From Anagrus nilaparvatae (Eukaryota > Arthropoda > Insecta > Hymenoptera > Mymaridae), in NCBI GenBank assembly GCA_022575985.1, contig JAKSXM010000263.1:8226001-8290000 (forward strand): DNA of 64,000 nt. The letters run 5' to 3'. The position numbers were made by a program, and so were the translations under genes. Within the stretch, counting starts at the first letter, position 1; each line of letters starts with the position of its first letter. Below are positions 15,570 through 62,509 of the stretch, piece by piece. The notes beneath the pieces were generated by a model. It did not search any database, was not told where the DNA came from, and saw only the letters and a list, made by a program, of their open reading frames with translations.

Positions 15570-16532
15570 ATAAAAAACGCTGCCAAGTGATTGGCACTAT
15601 GGTTCCTCATCAACAATAGCAAAATATTTATAATGGTCTATTTTATCTAATAAAAATGATGTTTTTTTAATTTTTTTATATGAAAAATATTCAAAAAAAA
15701 AATTTGAAAAATTACGTATCAGATGGAAAAAATCCTTTAAAAAGAATAATTCTAGATATTAGTACTTTCATAGAAATAAATTAAGTACTACGTCCAAAAA
15801 GAAAAAAAATTATTGTGTTTTTTTAATTTCTTTATGCAAAAAATTTTGAAAAAAAAAATTTACAAAAATTACGTATCAGATGGAGAATTCCTTTAAAAAC
15901 GATAATTCTAGATATTAGTACTTTCATAGAAATAAATTAAGTACTAAGTCCAAGAAGAAAAAAAATTATTGTGTTTTTTTAATCTTTTTATACAAAAAAT
16001 TTTGAAAAAAAAAATTTCGAAAAATTACATATTAAATGGAGAAATCCTTTAAAAACGATGATTCTGGATATTAGAACTTTCCTAGAAATAAATTACGTCC
16101 AAAAAGAAAAAAAATTATTGTATTTTTTAAATTTTTTTATTAAAAAAATTTTGAAAAAAAAAAATATCGAAAAATTATGTATCACATGAAATATATAATC
16201 ATTTAAAAACGATAATTCTAAATATTCGTATTTTCGTAGAAAAAAATTAAGTACTACATCCTAAAAAAAAAAAAAAATTGGCATTTTTTATATTTTTTGG
16301 CGGCAAAAATTTTGAGAAAAAAATTTTCAAAAAATTAAGTATCAGGTCCAAATTACTTTTATAGAGGTTCTTAAAACTAGTACTTCCAAATTAAAAAAAA
16401 AAAAAGTACCTCGAGCTTTTTTGGTGAAAAAAATTTTGAAAAAAAAATTAGGTCTTAATGTCGTGTTTGCTCTGAAATATCACCGGTTACAGTGCGACAT
16501 ACATACATACATGCATACATACATACATACAA

Positions 16533-18119: not shown

Positions 18120-19297
18120 CGTAGAAATCGATAAAAGATATAAAAAACCGCTAAAATTTTGTTACCTTTTTTTGCTAATACTTTTGAGGTTTCTTAATAA
18201 GAATAAGGGTTTTTATGCAAGCATTTACTCATACTTCACACTTTAACCTATCTGTTGAACTATTAAAATATTACGCAAACCGATTCCATTCAAACCTAAG
18301 GTGAAAATATTTAATAAAATAACGCTGTTAAATGATCATTTTTGTTTTTTAATTCACTGTCAGTAATTTTTAAAATCAAATAGTATATATTTTTGTTTAA
18401 CATATTATAATGTTGCATCTTGTATTAAAATTTAATAAAAAAATTTAAAAATTTTTTCTGAGTGAGTTACGCACAGGGAGCTTGAATTCCCTTATTTCAG
18501 CAATTTTTAAACTAAAAAATGATTCACTTGTATCAGGTATATGTGATTCTGTACTAAATGCTTTTGAATCAGATGTATTAAAATTGAAATTTGACTTTGC
18601 ATCTTGTAATTGGAGTAACTTGATAAGTGAACACACAAATTATATGGCTACAAAGATTTTCACAAAAAATGGCTGCGTATAATTCATTCGTGCATAGACT
18701 ACTTACAATTCCAATGGAACAATCCGATTACGAAGAAGAGTTAAACATCATAAAACAAATAGCTGTTGCCAATGGATATAAAAGTTCAATAATCGATAAA
18801 CTTATTTATAAACAACAAATAAAGAAAAAGCATCAACTCTTACCAAAGGACAACCTCAAGTACTTATCAACTACTTACGGAAATATCACCAATCAAATCT
18901 TAGTAGAAGTTTTCAAAAAACTAAACATGAAAGTAGCCTTCAAAACGGATAACAACATCAAAAACATATTAAGATTTAGAACTCCCGAAAAATTGGAATT
19001 TAAAAGAGGTATTTACAAACTAGACTGCAACGATTGTGACAGCATATATATAGGACAAACAGGGCGCACTTTTTTCAAAAGATTTACAAAACACATACAA
19101 GGCCCAAATCAAAAAGTTCTGACATCCAATTATGCCGAATATCTTCTCACAAATAAAAACACAGGCACAATACTGCACGAAAATATGAGTAAATGCTTGC
19201 ATAAAAACCCTTATTCTTATTAAGAAACCTCAAAAGTATTAGCAAAAAAAGGTAACAAAATTTTAGCGGTTTTTTATATCTTTTATCGATTTCTACG
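18120..19297 (+). mobile_element. Penelope-like element, truncated, with 113-bp inverted ends
   Basis: The ends 18120-18232 and 19185-19297 are perfect inverted copies of 113 bp. The right copy overlaps the last codons of the PLE reading frame, so the left end is an inverted duplicate of the element's own 3' part, a structure known for Penelope-type elements. The element sits between the large inverted arms of D. No clear target duplication was found. Confidence 0.8.
18650..19223 (+). CDS. PLE reverse transcriptase C-terminus with GIY-YIG endonuclease
   Basis: PLE proteins combine a reverse transcriptase with a GIY-YIG endonuclease that nicks the target for priming. This open stretch covers only the C-terminal part. 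The thumb-like segment (NSFVHRLLTIPM and INGY-type region) is followed by RGIYKLDCNDCDSIYIGQTG, which holds both halves of the GIY-YIG signature: GIY, then YIG about 12 residues later. The conserved Arg follows in GRTFFKRF. The RT catalytic domain is missing, so it is 5'-truncated and not autonomous. The C-terminus ends inside the inverted repeat, probably short of the usual end. Confidence 0.88.
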
Positions 19298-19675
19298 CTG
19301 AAAACTTGTTAAAACCGATTTCAATTGAAAGAATTTTGATTTTTATGTAAATTTAATGCATAAAATTTTTGCATATAAGTCCTCATTATATAAAGAAAGT
19401 TATTTCTTCTTAGAAACTCTGGATATCTGCAAAAAAATGCTAAAAATCAATAGTTTATCTGTATTTTTGAGTTCTTATATATTGGGATCCTGTTGAAACC
19501 GGTGCTAATAGAAAATTTTTAAGTTTTTATATTATTTACAATCATAAAATTTGCATATAAAAGTATATGTTTAGAGTTAAATAAAAATTCGAGCTTAAAA
19601 ACCCAGAAAATCAGATAAAAAAATGAAAAAACCATCGGTTTATCGGCTTTTTTTAAAAATTGTACGTTGGAATCT

Positions 19676-20108
19676 CGTTAAAACCGGTTTCATTCTGCAA
19701 CTTCATGCGTGACAAAAAACATATAAATTTTTTAGGGATGAGTAAATCTTTGTAGCAGAGAAAATTAACTTCAAAGATAAAATTTGAACTAAAGTTTTTC
19801 GTTTTTTTAATTTTAAGGTGGCTTACGTGTCTCAAAAAATTTTTTTACATATATAAAATTAAAGTGCATAGAAATCCCAATTTTTTGAGACCTTGTAGAC
19901 CACTTTTCGTTTTCTGGATCCAGAGATATGAATTTTTGAAAATAAAAAAATTTTTTTAAACACTTTTGCCCCCCTAGCCCAACAGAGGGCAGTTGGGGTA
20001 AAAATTCCAACGGGAAAAATGTTTTTTTTATGAGTACTTTCAAGTGTAAAAAGGTTTTTTTGATTTCATGCCGGGGCCGAAATCGCTTCTTATTCCGGGA
20101 TGCTCTTT
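19676..20108 (-). repeat. Right arm of ~430-bp near-identical inverted repeat in D
   Basis: This is the reverse complement of 17312-17740. The high identity suggests recent origin or gene conversion between the arms. Confidence 0.85.
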
Positions 20109-20278
20109 TTTATTATATGTAACTATATACGTAATTTTTTTTGTCTTTAATATTTGGCACTTTCAGGAAAGGCGGTCGACCAAACTTTGGTTGACATAAA
20201 AGTACTCCCCACTAAGTTTTATTTTCAAGTATTAGTAGCTCATATTAGAATTTTTTGGCACTTTAATACCTTATTTCT

Positions 20279-20797
20279 TTTGATTCAATCTCGCCCTCAA
20301 AACTCCTAGTGAAATTGAAGGACATGGGATTTTCTCGTACTGCCTTACTGTGGATCAAATCATATATTCAGGATAGGCAACTCCAGTTTGTTTCTAAAAC
20401 ATCGCGCTCAAACGTACTTGGCACCAATCTTGGTGTTCCCCAAGGGTCTGTTCTTGGACCTCTTTTATTTTGCCTCTATATTAATGATTTGAAAATGCAT
20501 CTACCTGATGCCTATCACCTACTTTATGCAGACGATCTTCAAGTTTATATACAAGCCCCTCCTGAAGATACAACTTCAGCCATTACCACTCTAAATTTAA
20601 TTGCCAGCAAGGTATCAAATTGGGCTGACAGTGTCTCATTACGCCTAAATAAAAAAAAAAAATATGGCTATCTATTTCAGTACAACAGGCACTACGCAAA
20701 CATCTACTCTCACTCGATCCAGAGTAATCCATTACATGCAATACACCAAAAAAATATCAGAAACATGCTAATTTATGTGCTTTCTCTAAAAATGTAA
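20279..20797 (+). pseudogene. Non-LTR (jockey/CR1-like) reverse transcriptase remnant
   Basis: The frame begins right after the end of element D. It shows RT motif A (FDSI), motif B (GVPQGSVLGPLLF) and motif C (YADD), followed by the thumb start (KVSNWADSVSLRLN). It then jumps to 3'-terminal sequence, implying an internal deletion near 20660. The 5' half of the protein is missing. The copy ends in a simple tail at about 20975-21005. All three catalytic motifs look intact, but the protein is too short to work. Confidence 0.85.
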
Positions 20798-27869: not shown

Positions 27870-29830
27870 TGGAATGTTTTAATTTTAACTATTTTTATGC
27901 AATAATAGTATTGAAAAATTAGTATTGAATTTAGCATAAACTATACCTCAATTTAATTTTCTTTTCGTATAGTGTTCTTAAAATATAGTTTCTTAAAAAA
28001 TTTGAAATAATAGTATTGAATGTAGCAGAATATATACTATTTTTAAAATTTAAATTTCAATTCTTTTTATGCGATGATAACATTAAAATATTAGTATTGA
28101 ATTTAGCAGAATATACTCCACTTACGTGTTTTTGAAAATTGTCTTGTTTTATAGAAATGTTGTAATTTCAAATTTTTTATGCAATGATAGCATTGAAATA
28201 TTTATATTGAATTTAGCAAAATATACGTCACTTAAATGTTTTCGAATTCCGTCTTATTTTATAGAAATGTTGTAATATCGAATATTTTTTTGCAATGATA
28301 GTATTGAAATATTAGTATTGAATTTAGCAGAATATGCACCGCAAAAATATTTTCGAATCGTATCCTGTTTTATAGAAATGTTATTATTTCAAATGTTATT
28401 ATGCAATGATAGCATTGAAATATATATTTATTGCATTTAGCAAAATATACGCCACTCTAAAATTTTTTCGAATAGCAGTAGCCTGTTTTATAGAACATTT
28501 GTAATTTCAATTCTTTTTATGCAATGATAACATTAAAATATTAGTATTGAATTTAGCAGAATATATACTCCACTTACGTGTTTTTGAAAATTGTCTTGTT
28601 TTATAGAAATGATGTAATTTCAAATTTTTTATGCAATGCTAGCATTGAAATATTTATATTGAATTTAGCAAAATATACGCCACTTAAATGTATTCAAATT
28701 CCGTTTTGTTTTATAGAAATGTTGCAATTTCAAATATTTTTATGCAATGATAGTATTGAAATATTAGTATTGATTTTAGCAGAATATACACCGCAAATAT
28801 ATTTTCGAATCGTATCCTGTTTTATAGAAATGTTATTATTTCAAATGTTTTTATGCAATGATAGCACTGAAATATTTGTATTGAATTTAGAAAAATATAC
28901 GCCACTTACGTGTTTTTGAATATTGTCCTGTTTTATAGAAAGGTTGTAATTCCTAATCTTTTTATGCAATGATAGCATTGACATATTTTTATTGAATTTA
29001 GCAAAATATAAGCCACTTAAATGTTTTCGAATTCCGTCTATTTTTATAGGAATGTTGTAATATCAAATATTTTTATGCAATGATAGTATTGAAATATTAG
29101 TATTGAATTTAGCAGGATGTACGCCTCAAAAATATTTTGAATCGTGTCCTGCTTTATATAATTGTTATTATTTCAAATGTTTTTATGGTATGATAGCATT
29201 GATATATTTGTATTGAATTTAGAAAAATATAAGCCACTTTAAATTTTTTTCGAATAGCAGCAGCCTGTTTTATAGTAAATTTGTAATTTCAATGTTTTTA
29301 TGCAATTATAGCATTTAAATATGAGTATTAAATTTAGCAGAATATACCCCACTTACGTGTTTTTGAATATTGTCCTATTTTATAGAAGTCTTGTAATACC
29401 AAATGTTTTTATTCAATGATAGCATTGAAATATTTTTATTGAATTTAGCAAAATATACCCCTATTAAATGTTTTCGAATTTCGTCCTGTTTTATAGAAAT
29501 GTTATTATTTCTAATGTTTTTTTGCAATGATAGCATCGAAATATATGTATTAAATTTAGAAAAATATACGCAACTTAAATGTTTTCAAATTCCGTCTTGT
29601 TTTATAGAAATGTTGTAATTTCAAATATTTTTATGCAATGATAGTATTGAAGGATTAGTATTGATTTTAGCAGAATATATACCGCAAAAATATTTTCGAA
29701 TCGTATCCTAATTTATAGAAATGTTATTATATTGTTATTATAATTTTTTTGAATAGCAGTAGCCTGTTTTATAGTAAATTTGTAATTTCAATGTTTTTAT
29801 TCAATTATAGCATTTAAATATTAATTATTA
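27870..29830 (+). repeat. Minisatellite, ~16 units of about 111-116 bp
   Basis: The unit core is ATGCAATGATAGCATTGAAA, then TTGAATTTAGC.AAATATACGCCACTTA, then GTTTTATAGAAATGTTGTAA. About 16 units follow one another. Many units are multiples of three, so open frames of up to 113 codons read through three units (for example 28578-28919). They are a by-product of the period, not evidence of a gene. Confidence 0.85.
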
Positions 29831-30345: not shown

Positions 30346-30533
30346 CAAAGTTCCACGAAAGCGCAAAAAACACGATTTTTAAGGGTTTTTAAGGTTTAAG
30401 GGCGCCTAATATGGGCTAGGAAGCTAATTCCAACGGCGATCGGCTATTTTTTATAATACTTTTTGGATACAAATAATTTTTTTGCGATTGGGGAGGGCGG
30501 CCAAATCACTATGCTTATCCGGCAGTAGCCTTT
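30346..30533. mobile_element. Terminal fragment of palindromic element A family
   Basis: This is a single end of the A family, in the orientation of the right end at 62320-62507. It shares GGGCGCCTAATATGGGCTAG, AAGCTAATTCCAACGGCGAT and the terminal CCGGCAGTAGCCTTT. It stops exactly where BEL/Pao coding sequence begins (30534), so an A-family element is joined to, or inserted in, the BEL/Pao pol gene. Confidence 0.75.
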
Positions 30534-31557
30534 GGTTAGAAGCTCAATTCCTAAATGTAACACTTGCATAAGGTATAATTCAAACACATTACAGCAAAAA
30601 ATGGAGATTTTACCAGCATGTAGATCAATAAAACTTGATAAACCATTTAGAGCAAGCGGAGTAGATTATGCAGGTTCCTTTGACACCATAAGGTTTACAG
30701 GTCGTGGGGCACATAAAACGTTATATAAATCATACATAGCCGTGTTTGTATGTATGAATACTAAAGCGGTGCATCTAGAATTAGTCTCTGAATATTCGAG
30801 TCCAGACTTTATTGCCGCTTTCCGAAGGTTCACGTCAACTAGAGGACTATGTTTTGAGTTGACCAGGGAACTGCCTTTGTTGGTGCTAATGTAATCCTCA
30901 AGGAAATGTATAATGCTTCATCTGAGTATATGCATGAACTTGTTGGTTCTGTAGCAAATGAAGGTACTACCTGGAAATTTAACTCCCCAGGAGCTCCTCA
31001 TTTTGGCGAAATCTGGGAAGCTGCTGTAAAGTCTGTGAAGCACCATATTCGCAGAGTAGTCGGAAACCGCCAACTAACCTTCGAGGAAATGTATAGCCTG
31101 CTTAAACAAATTGAAGCATTCCTTAATTCGAGACCATTGGTACTCGTAACCGATGATCCTTCGGATAATTTATTTTTATCACCCTCCCTACTGCTGTCAC
31201 AATCAGAGTCGTATATATTGCCTGAAGCTAATTATGAAAAGGTGAAAATTTCAACTGTAGAAAGATACAAGTTGCTTCAACAAATTCTCCAGAGTTGGTG
31301 GCGTTGTTGGTCATCGGAATACCTACAAATGCTACAAGAGCGTCAAAAATGGTTGTATATATTAGTTGCTAAAGAAAAAAAATATTTATGTTGATGACAT
31401 AGTGTTAATCTCGGATGAGAAAATGCCACCATCTAAATGGCCACTGGCTAAGGTCATCAGAGTTTTCAAGGGCCCTGATGGTTTAGTCAGGGTGGTGGAA
31501 CTCAAAACGGGGTCAAAATTAAATACATTAAATAATGAGGAAGATAATAATTTATAA
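30534..31557 (+). pseudogene. BEL/Pao pol: integrase core and C-terminal domain
   Basis: The end of a BEL/Pao pol gene is spread over three frames. The first stretch has FRASGVDYAGSF with the first integrase Asp and VFVCMNTKAVHLELVSE. A frameshift near 30855 moves to DQGTAFVGAN with the second catalytic Asp. Then SPGAPHFGEIWEAAVKS gives the Glu region and LTFEEMYSLLKQIEAFLNSR follows. A second shift near 31366 leads to the C-terminal domain (DIVLISDEKMPPSKWPL, GPDGLVRVVELKTG). Reverse transcriptase and protease are missing on the left. The copy cannot encode a working integrase. Confidence 0.92.
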
Positions 31558-48008: not shown

Positions 48009-49553
48009 TTACTGCCGCTTGGCTCTGTACTTGGCAGTTTCTGTGGTCTTCGCCCAGACTTCTGATCCGTAGAGCAGGACAGCGTTGACGACTGACATCA
48101 GGAGCCTTCGCTTCCCTGGTTTGGGTCCCCCAATGTTGGCCATGAGCCTTGACAGGGAGGATGCGACCGACGCAGCCTTTTCACACGACCTCTGAAATTG
48201 CTCCCAGAAGGTCAGCTTGTTATCAAGCTGAACTCCCAGGTATTTCACCGATGTTCTGGTTCGGATCGTGTGTGGGTTTCCGCCGTCGTCGATAATTACA
48301 TCGAAGTCGGTGGGAACCCTTCGACGGGTCAGCAGTACGATCTCCGTTTTTGGGATCGTAAGCTGGAGCCCGTGATCGCCCATCCAGAGGTTGATCCGTC
48401 TCATGACTAGATTCAACCTCTCCTGGGTCACTTCTATGTCCCTGCCAGTTATGGTCAGGGCCACGTTGTCGGCGCACCCGATCAGGGAAACTCCTTCCGG
48501 GAGGTGGACGTGCAACAAGCCATCGTAAAAGGCATTCCACAGGTCCGAACCTTGCGCGATGCCTGCACTCAAAACCCTTTCACGCCTTCCATCGAGCGTG
48601 TCGTAGAGCAATCTCCGGTCCCGTAGGTAATCCTTTAGTACGTTACTCAGATACCTGGGTATCCGGAAATCGTACTCGAGGGACCGGATCATGTCATCCC
48701 ACCTGGCCGAGTTGAAAGCGTTTTTGACGCCCAGCGTTACCAGAAGGACGTCCTTGCGAATTGATGGCCGCTTTTCCCTCTCAGCCTCTACGGTATCCAC
48801 AACACGCCAGATGGCGTCTATCGTGGAATGCCCTTCATGAAAACCATGCTGCTCCTCAGAGAGACCACCGCCCTCCTCGATTGCCCTTCTGAGCCTTGCC
48901 CGGAGCATGCTCTCCATCACCTCACCAATGGTATTTAACATACACAAAGGTCTGTTAAATGATGGAGAGTCCGGGGCTCCCCCCTTGCCCTTGTTCAAGA
49001 GCACGAGACGTGCCACCTTCCACTGCTTTGGGAACACTCCAGCCACCAAACACGCATTGAACATGCTTAACAGGATACCAGGGATTACTTTGACCGCTCT
49101 TTTGAGCACTTCCGCCGGTATCCTGTCCGGCCCCGGCGCCTTGCCATTTTTCATGGCCTTTATGGCCTTGACCATCTCACCTTCGCTGAACAGCGGCACT
49201 TCCTCCCTGGGTATCACCTCAACCGGGTTTTCCTGGATGGGCCTTTCAGGGAAGAGAGCACCGACGATCCGTTCAGTCGACGCCGCGTCAATCATGTTGT
49301 CGGACCCCCGGTTCAACTTGCCCATTACGACTTTGTAACCTAGGCCCCAGGGGTCCTTACTTACATCTTCGCGTAATGAACGCAGACATGGAGCCTTGCT
49401 TTGACGGAAGGCCTTGGCCAGCCGGTGTTTGGCGCCCTTGTGCTCCTGAGAAAGCACGGCGGCCTCAGGTCTGTCCCGTGCTCTTTGCGCCTTTCGTCGT
49501 GTCCTGTGGCATTCCTTCTGGAGCTCAGCTATTTCGGGAGTCCACCAGTACAC
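48009..49553 (-). pseudogene. LINE reverse transcriptase with altered catalytic motifs
   Basis: The 514-codon stretch follows the in-frame TGA and starts YWWTPEIAELQKECHRTRRK, typical of the linker before the R1-clade RT. The palm is recognisable (NGKAPGPDRIPAEVLK, RPLCMLNTIGEVMES, EEQHGFHEGHSTIDA). Three catalytic positions are changed. Motif A reads VTLGVKNAFNS where Asp is expected before VKNAF. Motif B reads GIAQGSDLWNAF with a deletion. Motif C reads GCADN in place of YADD. The frame shifts near 48010, where the C-terminal region continues as IPIDLLALERKFNYES in another frame. Confidence 0.9.
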
Positions 49554-49559
49554 TGGCTT

Positions 49560-50044
49560 TCATCCTTTCCAGGGACTGCGGTGAGGCATCGAGGCATTAC
49601 AAGCCCCGCATAATAGAGACGTTACTTTCTTAACTAAGATTTCAGCCTCATGGGGACTTGTGGCCCCTCCATGCCAAGCGGGGATGGACGCTGACTCGAT
49701 TCGAAGATACTCCTCGAATCTGTCTTCGTCCATTTTTGGGACGTTCCAACCCAGGGGGCGCCTCCTGTACGGAGGCCGTTGTGAGGTTCCCTCCAATACC
49801 CGGAAGACGATGTAATGATGATCACTACCATTGTATTGATCATCCATCACCCTCCAGTTGCCTATTCTCCCGGACGCAGCTTCTGTAGCGAAGGTTATGT
49901 CCGGGATAGAGGCACCCCAACCCGGCCTCCCGTAGGTGGGCCTGTTGCCTCTATTCTGGACCACTAGTTTGCACCTAGCGGCCATTTTGAGCACCATTCG
50001 TCCCCTTGGGTTAGTCGTTGGCATCCCCCATTCCAGAGCCCTGG
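49560..50044 (-). pseudogene. LINE endonuclease (EEP) C-terminal part
   Basis: The stretch contains MPLLSRALEWG only across the insertion edge, then the apurinic-like endonuclease end: RPGWGASIPDITFATEA, then WRVMDDQYNGSDHHYIVF, whose SDH is the conserved catalytic His motif. The N-terminal catalytic residues are lost by 5' truncation at 50044. It joins the reverse transcriptase in the same frame, but a TGA stop (about 49560) stands between them. Confidence 0.85.
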
Positions 50045-50056
50045 ATAATAAAGGCA

Positions 50057-50149
50057 TTATTAAGCATAATATAACTTATAATTGTTAAGATTAATTAACT
50101 ACCTCATCCTCATCCACTATTCCACCAATTAGTTCAATGGCAGTTCATA
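50057..50149 (+). repeat. BEL/Pao 5' LTR, right part
   Basis: It resumes with TTATTAAGCATAATATA directly after the LINE's second target copy and ends GGCAGTTCATA. It matches the last part of the 3' LTR. Joining it to 47520 restores the order seen in the 3' LTR. Confidence 0.85.
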
Positions 50150-56378: not shown

Positions 56379-57341
56379 AAAGGCTATTGCCGGATAAATA
56401 TAGTGATTTGGCCCCCCTCCCCAATCTCAAAAAAATTATTTGCATCCGAAAAATATTATAAAAACTAACTGATCGCCGTTGGAATTAGCTTCCTAGCCCA
56501 TATTAGGCGCCCTTAAACCTTAAAAAACCTTAAAAATCGTGTTTTTTGCGTTTTTTTTTGTTTCTCCGCACTGTGATGAGCTACTAATCTGAAAGTTGCG
56601 TAGAAAAAAAGGGCACAGAGTGTATTTTCAATCTTCATTGGTTTTAGACCTTTAAGACCATTTTAAGACCCCGAAAATTTATTTTTAATTTTCGAAAAAT
56701 TGGTTTTTTAAGCATAAAAAAAAATAACCAGCGTTAAATTTCTTCAAACTGACCTAAAAATTTGAAAAAAAGTATATTTTACTGATATCATTCTTGTCCT
56801 AGAGGGGGAGCTCATCTCCACACCTTCAAAACTCAAAAAACGCGTTTTTTTTGCCTCTACACGATTAAAATGCAATAGAATTGCAAAAATTCGTTTTGGA
56901 ACCTCCCTAAATCTTTTTGAGCATCTATTTATACGTTTTAACTAAAATATATTTCATTAATTATTGTTTTTAGACCCTTATGACCACTCAAAACCACCTT
57001 AAGAGCCCAAAAATTGATTTTACATTTTCGAAAAATCAGTTTTTTTGAAATTAAAAAATTATACCTGCCTTTAATTCTTTCAAATTGGACTAAAAAGGCA
57101 AAGAAAATTATTTTTTAACGATATCAGTCCTGTCCTGGAGGGGGAGCTCATCCCCACCCCTTGAAAACTCAAAAAACGCGTTTCTTTGCCCCTACACGAT
57201 TAACCCATTAATTCCTAAGAAGAAACTGCATTTGACAGAGCTGTAAAACCTATTCCATTTAGAGCATTTGACTCAAATTAGTAAAATAAAACACAAAAAA
57301 AATTTCAAAATGGCGGACATTTATAAATGGCGGACTAATAT

Positions 57342-57838
57342 TGTTGCGGCCTATAGCTATAAAATTATATTTTTTTATTTTTTCATGTTGAATATTCGCG
57401 GTAAATAATGTTTTACGTGATATTGTAATTATTTGATTTATCGGCCCCCCGTTTTAGGGCCCCTTCTCTCACGTTAAACTTTCACCGGTTCTATAAAACC
57501 GATTCATGCTCTCATTCTGTGGTCGCGTCGGCGGTCGCGCTCGTAAGACAATTTTAGCCATGCACCGCCCAGCGTATTAAACATAAAGTTATCATAGAAC
57601 TAAAAACAGTGCTTAAATTTAATTTAATTAATTCAAATCAATTCATTTTTCTTTAACGCCAGCGATCAATAACTATATTTATACAGTCCACTAATCTAAC
57701 ATTTAATTATTTGTATATAATACATTCAATAAGTGCGTTTTAATAATTATTTTATTATTTTAATCACGTGTGAATTTATTTATAAACCCAAACCAATTTT
57801 CCTACAATTTCCCCAAATATTTCCTCCAAAATATTACA
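57342..57838. mobile_element. Solo LTR (497 bp) in the left arm of element A
   Basis: It begins TGTTGCGGCC and ends AAATATTACA, with AATAT on both sides (57337-57341 and 57839-57843). The opposite arm at about 58723-58760 has the same sequence without it (reverse-complemented, GGACTAATATGGTGGTCAG), which proves the insertion point. Inside, a TATAAAA (57491-57497) precedes CTCTCATTCTGTGG, resembling an LTR promoter. The family (Gypsy or BEL) cannot be told from the LTR alone. Confidence 0.85.
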
Positions 57839-59479
57839 AATATGGTGGTCAGAAAAAATTAAATTTTGATATTTTTTGATAAAAATTTGTGTGAATGGTA
57901 TTTTTTTGGGTGCTAATTACGAATATATAGTTATTTATCAAAAATTTTTAAATGGCGGAACCAATATGGCAGTTGCAAAACTCAAAATTTCGAGATTTTT
58001 GACGATTTTAAGCCTGAGCAGAAACTGTAAGTTATATAACCATAAAACCGGTTTCAGTTAGGGCATTTAAACATTTTATGTGAAAATATAATTTTTTTTC
58101 GAAAAAAATTCAAAATGGTGGATAAAGATGGCGGACACGAAAAACTAAATTTCGTCATTTTTTGGTCAAAATTTGTGTACAGGGTATTTTTTGGATGCTC
58201 ATTACGAAGGTCTATCTATTTTTCAAAAACTCAAAATGGCGGATCTAATGTGGCTACTGAAAAATGCGAAATTTCGAGATTTTTGACGATTTTGAGCCTG
58301 AGAAGAAACTGTAAATAGTATAAGCGTAAAACCGGTTTTATTTAGGGCATTTAAACATGTTATATGAAAAAATGAAAATTATTTATTAAAATTCAAAATG
58401 GCCGATCAATATAGCGGACACAGAAGAAACTTACAGTTTCTTCTTAATCTCGCCATTTTGAGTTTTTGAAAAATAGATAAATAAATAAATATTTTTTCAC
58501 ATTACATGTTTAGATGCCCTAAATGAAACCGGTTTTATGGTTATATAACTTACAGTTTCTGCTCAGGCTCAAAATCGTCAAAAATCTCGAAATATCGAGT
58601 TTTTCAACGACCATATTGGTTCCGCCATTTAAAAATTTTTGATAAATAACTATATATTCGTAATTAGCACCCAAAAAATACCATTCACACAAATTTTTAT
58701 CAAAAAATATCAAAATTTAATTTTTTCTGACCACCATATTAGTCCGCCATTTATAAATGTCCGCCATTTTGAAATTTTTTTTGTGTTTTATTTTACTAAT
58801 TTGAGTCAAATGCTCTAAATGGAATAGGTTTTACAGCTCTGTCAAATGCAGTTTCTTCTTAGGAATTAATGGGTTAATCGTGTAGGGTCAAAGAAACGCG
58901 TTTTTTGAGTTTTCAAGGGGTGGGGATGAGCTCCCCCTCCAGGACAGGACTGATATCGTTAAAAAATAATTTTCTTTGCCTTTTTAGTCCAATTTGAAAG
59001 AATTAAAGGCAGGTATAATTTTTTAATTTCAAAAAAACTGATTTTTCGAAAATGTAAAATCAATTTTTGGGCTCTTAAGGTGGTCTTGTGTGGTCATAAG
59101 GGTCAAAAACAATAATTAATGAAATATATTTTAGTTAAAACGTATAAACAGATGCTCAAAAAGATTTAGGGAGGTTCCAAAACGAATTTTTGCAATTCTA
59201 TTGCATTTTAATCGTGTAGAGGCAAAAAAACGCGTTTTTTGAGTTTTGAAGGTGTGGAGATGAGCTCCCCCTCTATAGTCGGGTCTAATCCGTAATTCAA
59301 AAATAAAAACCACGACGATGATTGAATTCAGATTTTACCTATGGGAATCTCTTAAGACGATAATAAAGAACAAAGGCTACAACGAATAATTTTGCGGAAA
59401 TGAAAATTGGGTGAAAACACCCCCAATTTCCCCCCCCCCTTAAGCCCTAAAATTTAAATTGATCTTTTTTGCAATTTTA

Positions 59480-60297
59480 ATGACCCCTAGTAGGTATTTT
59501 TGGTCGCTGAAGCTGAAAATGAAGTCCAAAATTGTTTTTAAGGGGTGTGCACCCTTATTTTAACCCTTTTCTACCCTTAAAATAAGCAATTTTTTATAAA
59601 ACGTTTTTTTTTTTATTTTTACGACCCCTAGTAGGTATTTTTGGTCGCTGAAGCTGAAAATGAAGTCCAAAATTGTTTTTAAGGGGTGTGCACCCTTATT
59701 TTAACCCTTTTCTACCCTTAAAATAAGCAATTTTTTATAAAACGTTTTTTTTTTATTTTTACGACCCCTAGTAGGTTTTTTTGGTCGCTGAAGCTGAAAA
59801 TGAAGTCCAAAATTGTTTTTAAGGGGTGTGCACCCTTATTTTAACCCTTTTCTACCCTTAAAATAAGCAATTTTTTATAAAACGTTTTTTTTTTATTTTT
59901 ACGACCCCTAGTAGGTTTTTTTGGTCGCTGAAGCTGAAAATGAAGTCCAAAATTGTTTTTAAGGGGTGTGCACCCTTATTTTAACCCTTTTCTACCCTTA
60001 AAATAAGCAATTTTTTATAAAACGTTTTTTTTTCAACTTTTACGGCCCCTAGTAGGTATTTTGGGTCGCTGATTCTAAAAATGAAGTCCAAAATGGTTTT
60101 TAAGGGGTGTACACCCTTATTTTAACCCTTTTCTACCCTTAGAATAAGCAATTTTTTATAAAACGTTTTTTTTTTCAACTTTTACGGCCCCTAGTAGGTA
60201 TTTTGGGTCGCTGATTCTGAAAATGAAGTCCAAAATGGTTTTTAAGGGGTGTACACCCTTATTTTAACCCTTTTCTACCCTTAGAACAAGCAATTTG
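59480..60297 (+). repeat. Left subterminal array: ~6 units of about 140 bp
   Basis: Each unit holds GACCCCTAGTAGGTATTTTT, GGTCGCTGAAGCTGAAAATG, AAGTCCAAAATTGTTTTTAA and GGGGTGTGCACCCTTATTTT. The outer units are almost identical to each other; the two innermost differ together (CGGCCCCTAG, GATTCTGAAAATG). Confidence 0.9.
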
Positions 60298-60435
60298 TAT
60301 AGTTTTAATATGTAAGAATATAAATAAAGATTAAATGAGCGTAAGTTTTATAAAAGAAATATTTAATAAAAAAACTTTATTTACATAATATTTTGTTTAG
60401 TTACATGTATAAAATTACAATATTTCAGTAATTTA

Positions 60436-61194
60436 CTAATCTTCGTCATCTTCTTCAGAACCTTCATTTTCAGATAATACATTACCATGGTCGTCTTCTT
60501 CACCTACTTCATCGTCGTCACTGTCATCTGCAGTTGCAGTAATGTTGGTGCAATTGCTACCGTAGCAATTCACACAGCTTGAGGAACATTCTAAACCACT
60601 TCGTCTGCAACCGCATTGTTTTCCGCAGCCTTTTTTACACCCACAAACAATAACATTTAAAACATTTTGTGGGGCAAACGGTTGCGTCATTTTTACTGGT
60701 TGTAACATATTACCTTTTTTTGTCCACCCCCATTCTTCTGGATTAAGGGGGTTAGTGTGGCTTAAGAAGCCAATCCACTCCCTAACCTGAAAATATACCC
60801 GCTTTAAATGCTGCAATAGAGCATCTGCTGTAGGTGGCAGATAAGCGAGATCTACAGGTTTAGGTTTTACTGGTTTCGAATTCTTAATTTTTCCGGTTGG
60901 CTTTGGAGTACTCTCTGCATTCGCGGCAGCTTTCTTTGCAGCTGAATTTATTTGCTTTATTTTTTTTTCATTTTTGGATGCAAATAATGTGTATCGCAAC
61001 CTATGTAGCCGTTCAATTAAAGTCAAATTTGTAGATTCTGAATCAGTACATTTTTCCTTATACATTGCCAAGACACATTTTATTCCTGCTTTTAAAATTT
61101 CTGGCAAGTCGGGTTCTGAGGTAAAAACCTTGACTGCTTCCTGTAGGTCTGGCCTCGTTTCAAATAATTTGAAGGGTAGAAATAATTTATAGTA
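60436..61194 (-). CDS. Element C protein with CXC-like cysteine cluster and acidic tail
   Basis: The open frame spans about 252 codons from just after a stop at 61195-61197. No ATG precedes the Met in VLAMYKEK, so the start is unknown: it may be spliced, 5'-truncated or begin at 61059 or so. The middle reads LPPTADALLQHLKRVYFQVR and then EEWGWTKKGNMLQPV. The cluster VCGCKKGCGKQCGCRRSGLE continues CSSSCVNCYGSNC, giving nine or more cysteines in a CxC-type spacing reminiscent of Tesmin/TSO1 CXC domains, which bind DNA. The tail is mostly Asp, Glu and Ser. I recall similar ORFs in invertebrate repeats but cannot name the family. Function is unknown. Confidence 0.8.
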   Translation of the reverse strand, partial: YYKLFLPFKLFETRPDLQEAVKVFTSEPDLPEILKAGIKCVLAMYKEKCTDSESTNLTLIERLHRLRYTLFASKNEKKIKQINSAAKKAAANAESTPKPTGKIKNSKPVKPKPVDLAYLPPTADALLQHLKRVYFQVREWIGFLSHTNPLNPEEWGWTKKGNMLQPVKMTQPFAPQNVLNVIVCGCKKGCGKQCGCRRSGLECSSSCVNCYGSNCTNITATADDSDDDEVGEEDDHGNVLSENEGSEEDDED

Positions 61195-61199
61195 TTAAT

Positions 61200-61870
61200 A
61201 ATTTTAAGGGTAGAAAAGGGTTAAAATAAGGGTGCACACCCCTTCAAAACAATTTTGGACTTCATTTTCAGCTTCAGCGACCAAAAATACCTACTAGGGG
61301 TCGTAAAAATAAAAAAAAAAACATTTTATAAAAAATTGCTTATTTTAAGGGTAGAAAAGGGTTAAAATAAGGGTGCACACCCCTTAAAAACAATTTTGGA
61401 CTTCATTTTCAGCTTCAGCGACCAAAAATACCTACTAGGGGTCGTAAAAATAAAAAAAAAAACATTTTATAAAAAATTGCTTATTTTAAGGGTAGAAAAG
61501 GGTTAAAATAAGGGTGCACACCCCTTAAAAACAATTTTGGACTTCATTTTCAGCTTCAGCGACCAAAAATACCTACTAGGGGTCGTAAAAATAAAAAAAA
61601 AAACGTTTTATAAAAAATTGCTTATTTTAAGGGTAGAAAAGGGTTTAAATAAGGGTGCACACCCCTTAAAAACAATTTTGGACTTCATTTTCAGCTTCAG
61701 CGACCAAAAATACCTACTAGGGGTCGTAAAAATAAAAAAAAAAAACGTTTTATAAAAAATTGCTTATTTTAAGGGTAGAAAAGGGTTAAAATAAGGGTGC
61801 ACACCCCTTAAAAACAATTTTGGACTTCATTTTCAGCTTCAGCGACCAAAAATACCTACTAGGGGTCATT
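61200..61870 (-). repeat. Right subterminal array: ~5 units of about 140 bp, inverted
   Basis: The same unit as at 59480-60297 in opposite orientation, with five copies. The innermost unit borders the open frame directly, so the coding sequence begins right at the array edge. Confidence 0.9.
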
Positions 61871-62509
61871 AAAATTGCAAAAAAGATCAATTTAAATTTT
61901 AGGGCTTAAGGGGGGGGGGAAATTGGGGGTGTTTTCACCCAATTTTCATTTCCGCAAAATTATTCGTTGTAGCCTTTGTTCTTTATTATCGTCTTAAGAG
62001 ATTCCCATAGGTAAAATCTGAATTCAATCATCGTCGTGCTTTTTAGAGGTTTGGCCTTTTTTTTTACTCCTCAGCCCCGACTACTAGGACAAGACTGATA
62101 TCAGTAAAATATACTTTTTTTCAACTTTTTAGGTCAGTTTGAAGAAGTTTAACGCTGGTTATTTTTTTTTATGCTCAAAAAACCAATTTTTCGAAAATTA
62201 AAAATAAATTTTCGGGGTCTTAAAATGGTCTTAAAGGTCTAAAACCAATGAAGATTGAAAATACACTCTGTGCCCTTTTTTTCTACGCAACTTTCAGATT
62301 AGTAGCTCATCACAGTGCGGAGAAACAAAAAGAACGCAAAAAACACGATTTTTAAGGTTATTTTAAGGTTTAAGGGCGCCTAATATGGGCTAGGAAGCTA
62401 ATTCCAACGGCGATCAGTTAGTTTTTATAATATTTTTCGGATGCAAATAATTTTTTTGAGATTGGGGAGGGGGGCCAAATCACTATATTTATCCGGCAAT
62501 AGCCTTTAA

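Follow-up and report, generated by a model that had tools for sequence, protein, structure and literature searches.

AcademX transposons encode a nuclease of the XPG type. PIF-Harbinger, EnSpm/CACTA and Zator elements make 3-bp target site duplications, CACTA elements also having subterminal repeats, and we know of no FEN1/XPG nuclease in any of the three. The available sections of PMC10045372 give duplications of 3 or 4 bp for AcademX and of 9 or 10 bp for AcademH, and tie the difference to the nuclease encoded by the former and the helicase encoded by the latter; the mean length of bivalve Academ elements is 5,565 bp in the available part of PMC10294476. Here we describe a 2,808-bp element in a 64,000-nucleotide stretch of the Anagrus nilaparvatae genome (assembly GCA_022575985.1, contig JAKSXM010000263.1, forward-strand positions 8,226,001 to 8,290,000), called the window, in whose numbering all positions are given. 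The element is very probably a non-autonomous, internally deleted cut-and-paste transposon that has kept the C-terminal tail of a fused transposase-nuclease, an ordinary defective copy and no new system.

In relatives of the gene that the element carries, a FEN1/XPG-type nuclease is fused behind a transposase-like half, and the duplication, measured from one insertion, is 3 bp long. The element therefore fits AcademX, which is most likely its lineage, as matched to Academ by description. The 3-bp duplication is shared with PIF-Harbinger, EnSpm/CACTA and Zator; the tips of this element, however, read TAGTCGGG and not CACTA. The window copy differs from AcademX in having neither transposase nor nuclease active site, the nuclease being present in the relatives by fold, profile and active-site acids. 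When the 881 missing codons are added, the parent would measure at least 5.45 kb, which may be set beside the bivalve Academ mean in that part of PMC10294476. AcademH belongs to the same proposed superfamily but, in the available sections of PMC10045372, has a 9 or 10 bp duplication and a helicase, as against 3 bp here and a nuclease in the relatives. Compared with FEN1, EXO1 and XPG, whose fold and seven active-site acids the relatives' domain has, the nuclease is one domain of a protein of transposon type, which also bears a CXC cluster and an acidic tail and is no repair enzyme; the domain is absent from the window copy.

No CXC cluster was described in the available parts of five Academ accounts (PMC9143410, PMC9587614, PMC10799480, PMC10294476 and PMC9004415). 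The literature found, also available in part, held no account of a CXC- or XPG-bearing transposase and no paper joining GCDTTS to a transposon or DUF6589 to a transposase.

The element and its insertion site

The element (Table 1) runs from TAGTCGGG to CCCGACTA. A 500-bp stretch of its left flank matched the minus strand of 57301-56800 with 98.8% identity (96.4% over 587 columns when the match was taken further out), and the first 424 bp of the right flank matched 56802-56379 with 98.4% identity. The two matches overlapped on the paralogue by exactly 3 bp, and the empty site reads ctccccctCTAggacaag, with its CTA at 56800-56802 on the minus strand. At a distance of 2.5 kb there is therefore an uninterrupted paralogue, and 3 bp were duplicated. 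This empty site fixes the ends of the element and bears out the preliminary description, made from the letters alone, of a transposon flanked by copies of CTA. With inverted ends, a 3-bp CTA duplication and a paralogous empty site, the element has the marks of a DNA transposon. The simplest order of events is that the flanks were duplicated first and the element inserted second; the alternative is that one arm lost the element precisely. No second copy was found within the window (blastn, E ≤ 1e-4).

The insertion site lies inside a palindromic repeat (56379-57386 and 58699-62507) with arms 96-99% identical. Its outer ends read AAAGGCTATTGCCGG, and a third copy of the end was seen at 30362-30533 (92%). 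The repeat is possibly a foldback-type element; no clear duplication was noticed by eye.

Subterminal arrays

The inward-facing repeats of about 140 bp in the preliminary description, some six at the left and five at the right, were recovered as such: the unit anchor CCTAGTAGG occurred six times on the plus strand (59486-60190) and five times on the minus strand (61290-61855), and was matched exactly nowhere else in the window. Units L1-L4 and R1-R4 were 96-100% identical to one another, and the innermost units L5, L6 and R5 were 83-94% identical to the remaining units, the lower values of L6 and R5 being partly due to both running out of the array. The description of the inverted ends as near-identical held for alignment columns 61-720 (653/660 identical), with ungapped inverted arms of 317 nt at 99%, but not for the tips, where the first 60 columns agreed at 40 positions with a 10-bp length difference and 8 bp, TAGTCGGG, were common to both. 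This pattern suggests that arms and arrays were homogenised by copying and the tips were not. The arrays are putative binding sites of the parent transposase.

The open frame and its relatives

Between the arrays lies, as had been claimed, one sizeable open frame, of 252 codons; it runs on the minus strand. No other frame in the element comes near it in length, those of at least 50 codons being antisense to it, in repeats or at the edge, and a stop-free run of 244 codons would arise by chance with a probability of about 2e-8 at the frame's base composition. The cysteine cluster and acidic tail noted earlier were also found, and all nine cysteines were invariant in 13/13 rows of alignment A6. 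The cluster is CXC-like, yet neither of the Pfam families PF03638 (Tesmin/TSO1-like CXC) and PF18264 (preSET_CXC) matched the frame; among the relatives scanned, P0008 matched the former and P0131 the latter, each below the cut-off. Otherwise the Pfam scan of the frame gave only below-cut-off matches of chance-like appearance, and a sequence search of the PDB gave one weak unrelated row.

A single-sequence search returned eight relatives, the longer ones reaching further upstream than the window frame does. The profile search returned 322 at E ≤ 1e-5, and a wider one 408 at E ≤ 1e-10, in which the 7,993 candidates that shared the most words were scored. Among the best 120 of the 322, for which names and sources were taken, were proteins from Porites, Araneus, Cydia, Mythimna, Photinus, Trichogramma, Frankliniella, Phaedon, Elysia, Littorina and Antedon; the best 120 of the 408 included Diatraea, Nymphon, Mya, Patella, Actinostola and Myxine. 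Most of those named among the matches listed go by the name of Tesmin/TSO1-like CXC, uncharacterised or hypothetical proteins. One, P0061, is named from a bacterial metagenome-assembled genome (Sedimenticola, longest contig 1,942 bp) and was taken as animal contamination. Scans of viral contigs and of bacterial and archaeal genomes with one or two peptide patterns each confirmed no relative. In a tree of 39 rows (38 of 245 proteins plus the window frame), the frame grouped with P0001, P0002 and P0003 with a support of 0.999. Alignments A5 (59 of 126 proteins) and A7 (54 of 245) were hand-picked by length and match.

The long relatives share one domain order: N-terminal half, nuclease, helical part, nine-cysteine cluster and acidic tail. 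The window frame aligned from residue 882 of the 1,084 of P0128, 15 residues past the last nuclease acid, and so has none of the seven active-site acids and nothing of the N-terminal half. The preliminary description had seen in the frame either a captured host fragment or an uncharacterised mobility protein; neither is the best account of a frame whose alignment is to the C-terminal end of a family of fused transposase-nucleases. Capture of a host gene was rejected as the first choice because longer relatives have the transposase-like half and because clusters of relatives reach 255 member sequences (P0152), although cluster size can only hint at copy number. That the CXC protein itself moves the element, as a self-sufficient new mobility system, is highly improbable. 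In its favour, the frame is the longest in the element, and the ends and duplication are unlike those of piggyBac, Tc1/mariner and hAT; against it, the relatives show the frame to be the end of a longer enzyme, of which this copy lacks all seven acids of the nuclease and the complete N-terminal half.

The nuclease and the N-terminal half of the long relatives

The motifs VIDGG, VFDGY, DAD, GEDIDLL and GCDTT hold seven acids that were conserved in 51-54 of 54 rows and that we take, by motif and spacing, to be those of the FEN1 active site. The predicted nuclease of P0014 matched the folds of EXO1, FEN1, XPG and GEN1, with a predicted local distance difference test score (pLDDT) mostly above 90 in that region, and a profile of 54 rows found human EXO1 by sequence (E 2.1e-4). 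A profile of 10 rows against the PDB gave three weak unrelated rows and no EXO1, and NCBIfam gave a single weak flap endonuclease row (P0176, E 0.0058). On the predicted fold, the relatives carry a FEN1/XPG-type 5' nuclease.

In the model of P0128, strands were placed at 41-47 and 64-70, within the part before residue 100 that is of low confidence, and at 169-176, 205-209 and 233-237, followed by a long helical stretch. An Asp after the 205-209 strand was present in 16 of the 19 rows reaching it, with one Ser and two gaps in the others. A helix at 447-460 bears a Glu conserved in 41 of the 43 rows reaching that site (two gapped). DUF6589 touched the N-terminal half in 8/54 rows, at best with E 7.3e-5 and 22.1 bits against a cut-off of 27. 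The modelled beta/alpha order and the conserved acids are compatible with an RNase H-type DDE transposase with a helical insertion, and the N-terminal half is presumably such an enzyme.

The probable internal deletion

On the 5' side of the gene, homology to P0001 begins at about 61170-61176, some 25-30 bp short of the right array, the intervening filler carrying a repeated TCTACCCTT, itself a word of the array unit. On the 3' side the stop codon is followed 55 bp on by AATAAA and then by the left array. This anatomy is that of an internal deletion, and the odd look of the element is probably due to a deletion that spared the CXC tail alone. Internal deletions in transposons usually come from faulty gap repair after excision, by which this one probably arose.

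The same junction might be read as gene capture, in which the ends belong to another transposon and the middle is a transposase-nuclease fragment captured from a different element or a host family. The frame opens in the midst of a domain and has no start codon close to where homology begins (the first Met is residue 44), filler occupies the junction, and a full-length copy bounded by these ends was not observed. We nevertheless regard capture as unlikely, since the fragment is a natural 3' gene end, with stop codon, AATAAA and array in sequence, and since a single deletion accounts for everything; the fragment is also enclosed in one element, and the 3-bp duplication is that expected of the nuclease-encoding AcademX from the available sections of PMC10045372.

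Under the internal-deletion reading, the parent would have had one long gene, running from right to left over at least some 1,080 codons, for a protein with a transposase-like domain, a FEN1/XPG-type 5' nuclease, the CXC cluster and the acidic tail. A deletion lying between the gene and the right array would have taken away all sequence as far as a point shortly beyond the nuclease active site, retaining the tips and arrays that a partner enzyme would require, and the deletion copy would have inserted at CTA with duplication of 3 bp. Direct support comes from the anatomy, the 3-bp duplication as compared with the paralogous empty site, a frame homologous to the family's C-terminal region and the nuclease fold of the relatives. 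We infer that the ends and the full-length gene belong together.

Several observations count against this account. The tips of a transposon are usually its best-conserved part, and here the pattern is reversed, the two ends differing most at their outermost tips (59276-59310 and 62039-62083). A single copy, this one, provides the whole of the link between ends and gene. The first candidate catalytic Asp was reached by 5/54 rows and was Asp in two of these five, and Pfam gave no above-threshold match in the transposase half. No transposase was among the best 50 of 298 PDB matches (E ≤ 10) of the full-length model, in which nucleases came on top. Pfam XPG_N and XPG_I each matched 2/54 rows, below the cut-off where a score was given.

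An addition to the internal deletion, which it does not exclude, is that the shortened CXC protein is still produced and, occupying the arrays without cleaving them, dampens the parent, in the manner of the KP repressor of the Drosophila P element. CXC domains are known DNA binders; all nine cysteines have been kept and 252 codons are open. The first Met does not come until residue 44, however, and a recent insertion would keep the frame open without selection too, so that we consider such a repressor unlikely. It is likewise improbable that the deletion copy has been kept because its CXC-tail protein, bound to the mirrored 141-bp arrays, represses the full-length parent. If true, the arrays and the CXC tail would be a matched DNA-protein pair, showing how ends are recognised in a poorly studied transposase-nuclease lineage.

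Feature coordinates and other features of the window

Table 1. Positions in the window of the element, its parts and its insertion site
Feature	Position	Strand	Remarks
Whole element	59276..62083	.	2,808 bp
Target site duplication CTA, left	59273..59275	.	single copy in empty site
Target site duplication CTA, right	62084..62086	.	single copy in empty site
Flank paralogue, inverted, without element	56379..57301	-	empty-site CTA at 56800-56802
Left terminal arm outside array	59276..59473	+	outer ~35 bp diverged from right tip; remainder ~99% identical inverted
Left subterminal array	59474..60296	+	5.8 copies of ~140 bp, 6 anchors, 96% matches
AATAAA, possible polyadenylation signal of remnant gene	60376..60381	-
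Open frame	60436..61194	-	252 codons + stop; C-terminal remnant of probable transposase-nuclease gene
Acidic tail	60439..60549	-
CXC-like cluster	60550..60645	-	nine cysteines
Inferred deletion junction	61173..61200	-	gene fragment meets array via ~25-30 bp filler
Right subterminal array	61201..61875	-	4.8 copies of 141 bp, 5 anchors, 98% matches
Right terminal arm outside array	61876..62083	-	outer ~45 bp diverged from left tip

Elsewhere in the window, a tandem array at 28053-29725 consists of 15 copies of a 111-bp unit (78% matches), and two separate arrays with a 156-bp period and similar consensus lie at 1763-2300 and 15660-16345. A remnant like a long interspersed nuclear element (LINE) at 48009-50075 on the minus strand has frames for reverse transcriptase (PF00078, E 1e-14) and endonuclease (PF14529, E 3e-7). 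A weak GIY-YIG match at 18627-19223, below the cut-off, has a reverse transcriptase nearby at 20267-20797; we take 18627-20797 to be perhaps a Penelope-like piece beside a LINE. A DUF5641 fragment at 30858-31394 is presumably of the kind found in BEL/Pao elements.

Significance

The element is a well-marked, recently moved, non-autonomous copy of a widespread transposase-nuclease lineage, and what appeared to be an orphan CXC gene becomes the end of a widespread fused transposase-nuclease. For one family, the empty site gives the exact duplication length and termini. The mirrored arrays offer a concrete DNA substrate for asking which part of the protein, CXC cluster, helical part or nuclease, recognises the ends, and what role a flap-type nuclease plays in transposition. 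With its mirrored arrays and precisely defined empty site, this copy provides useful points of entry into a lineage on which little work has been done.
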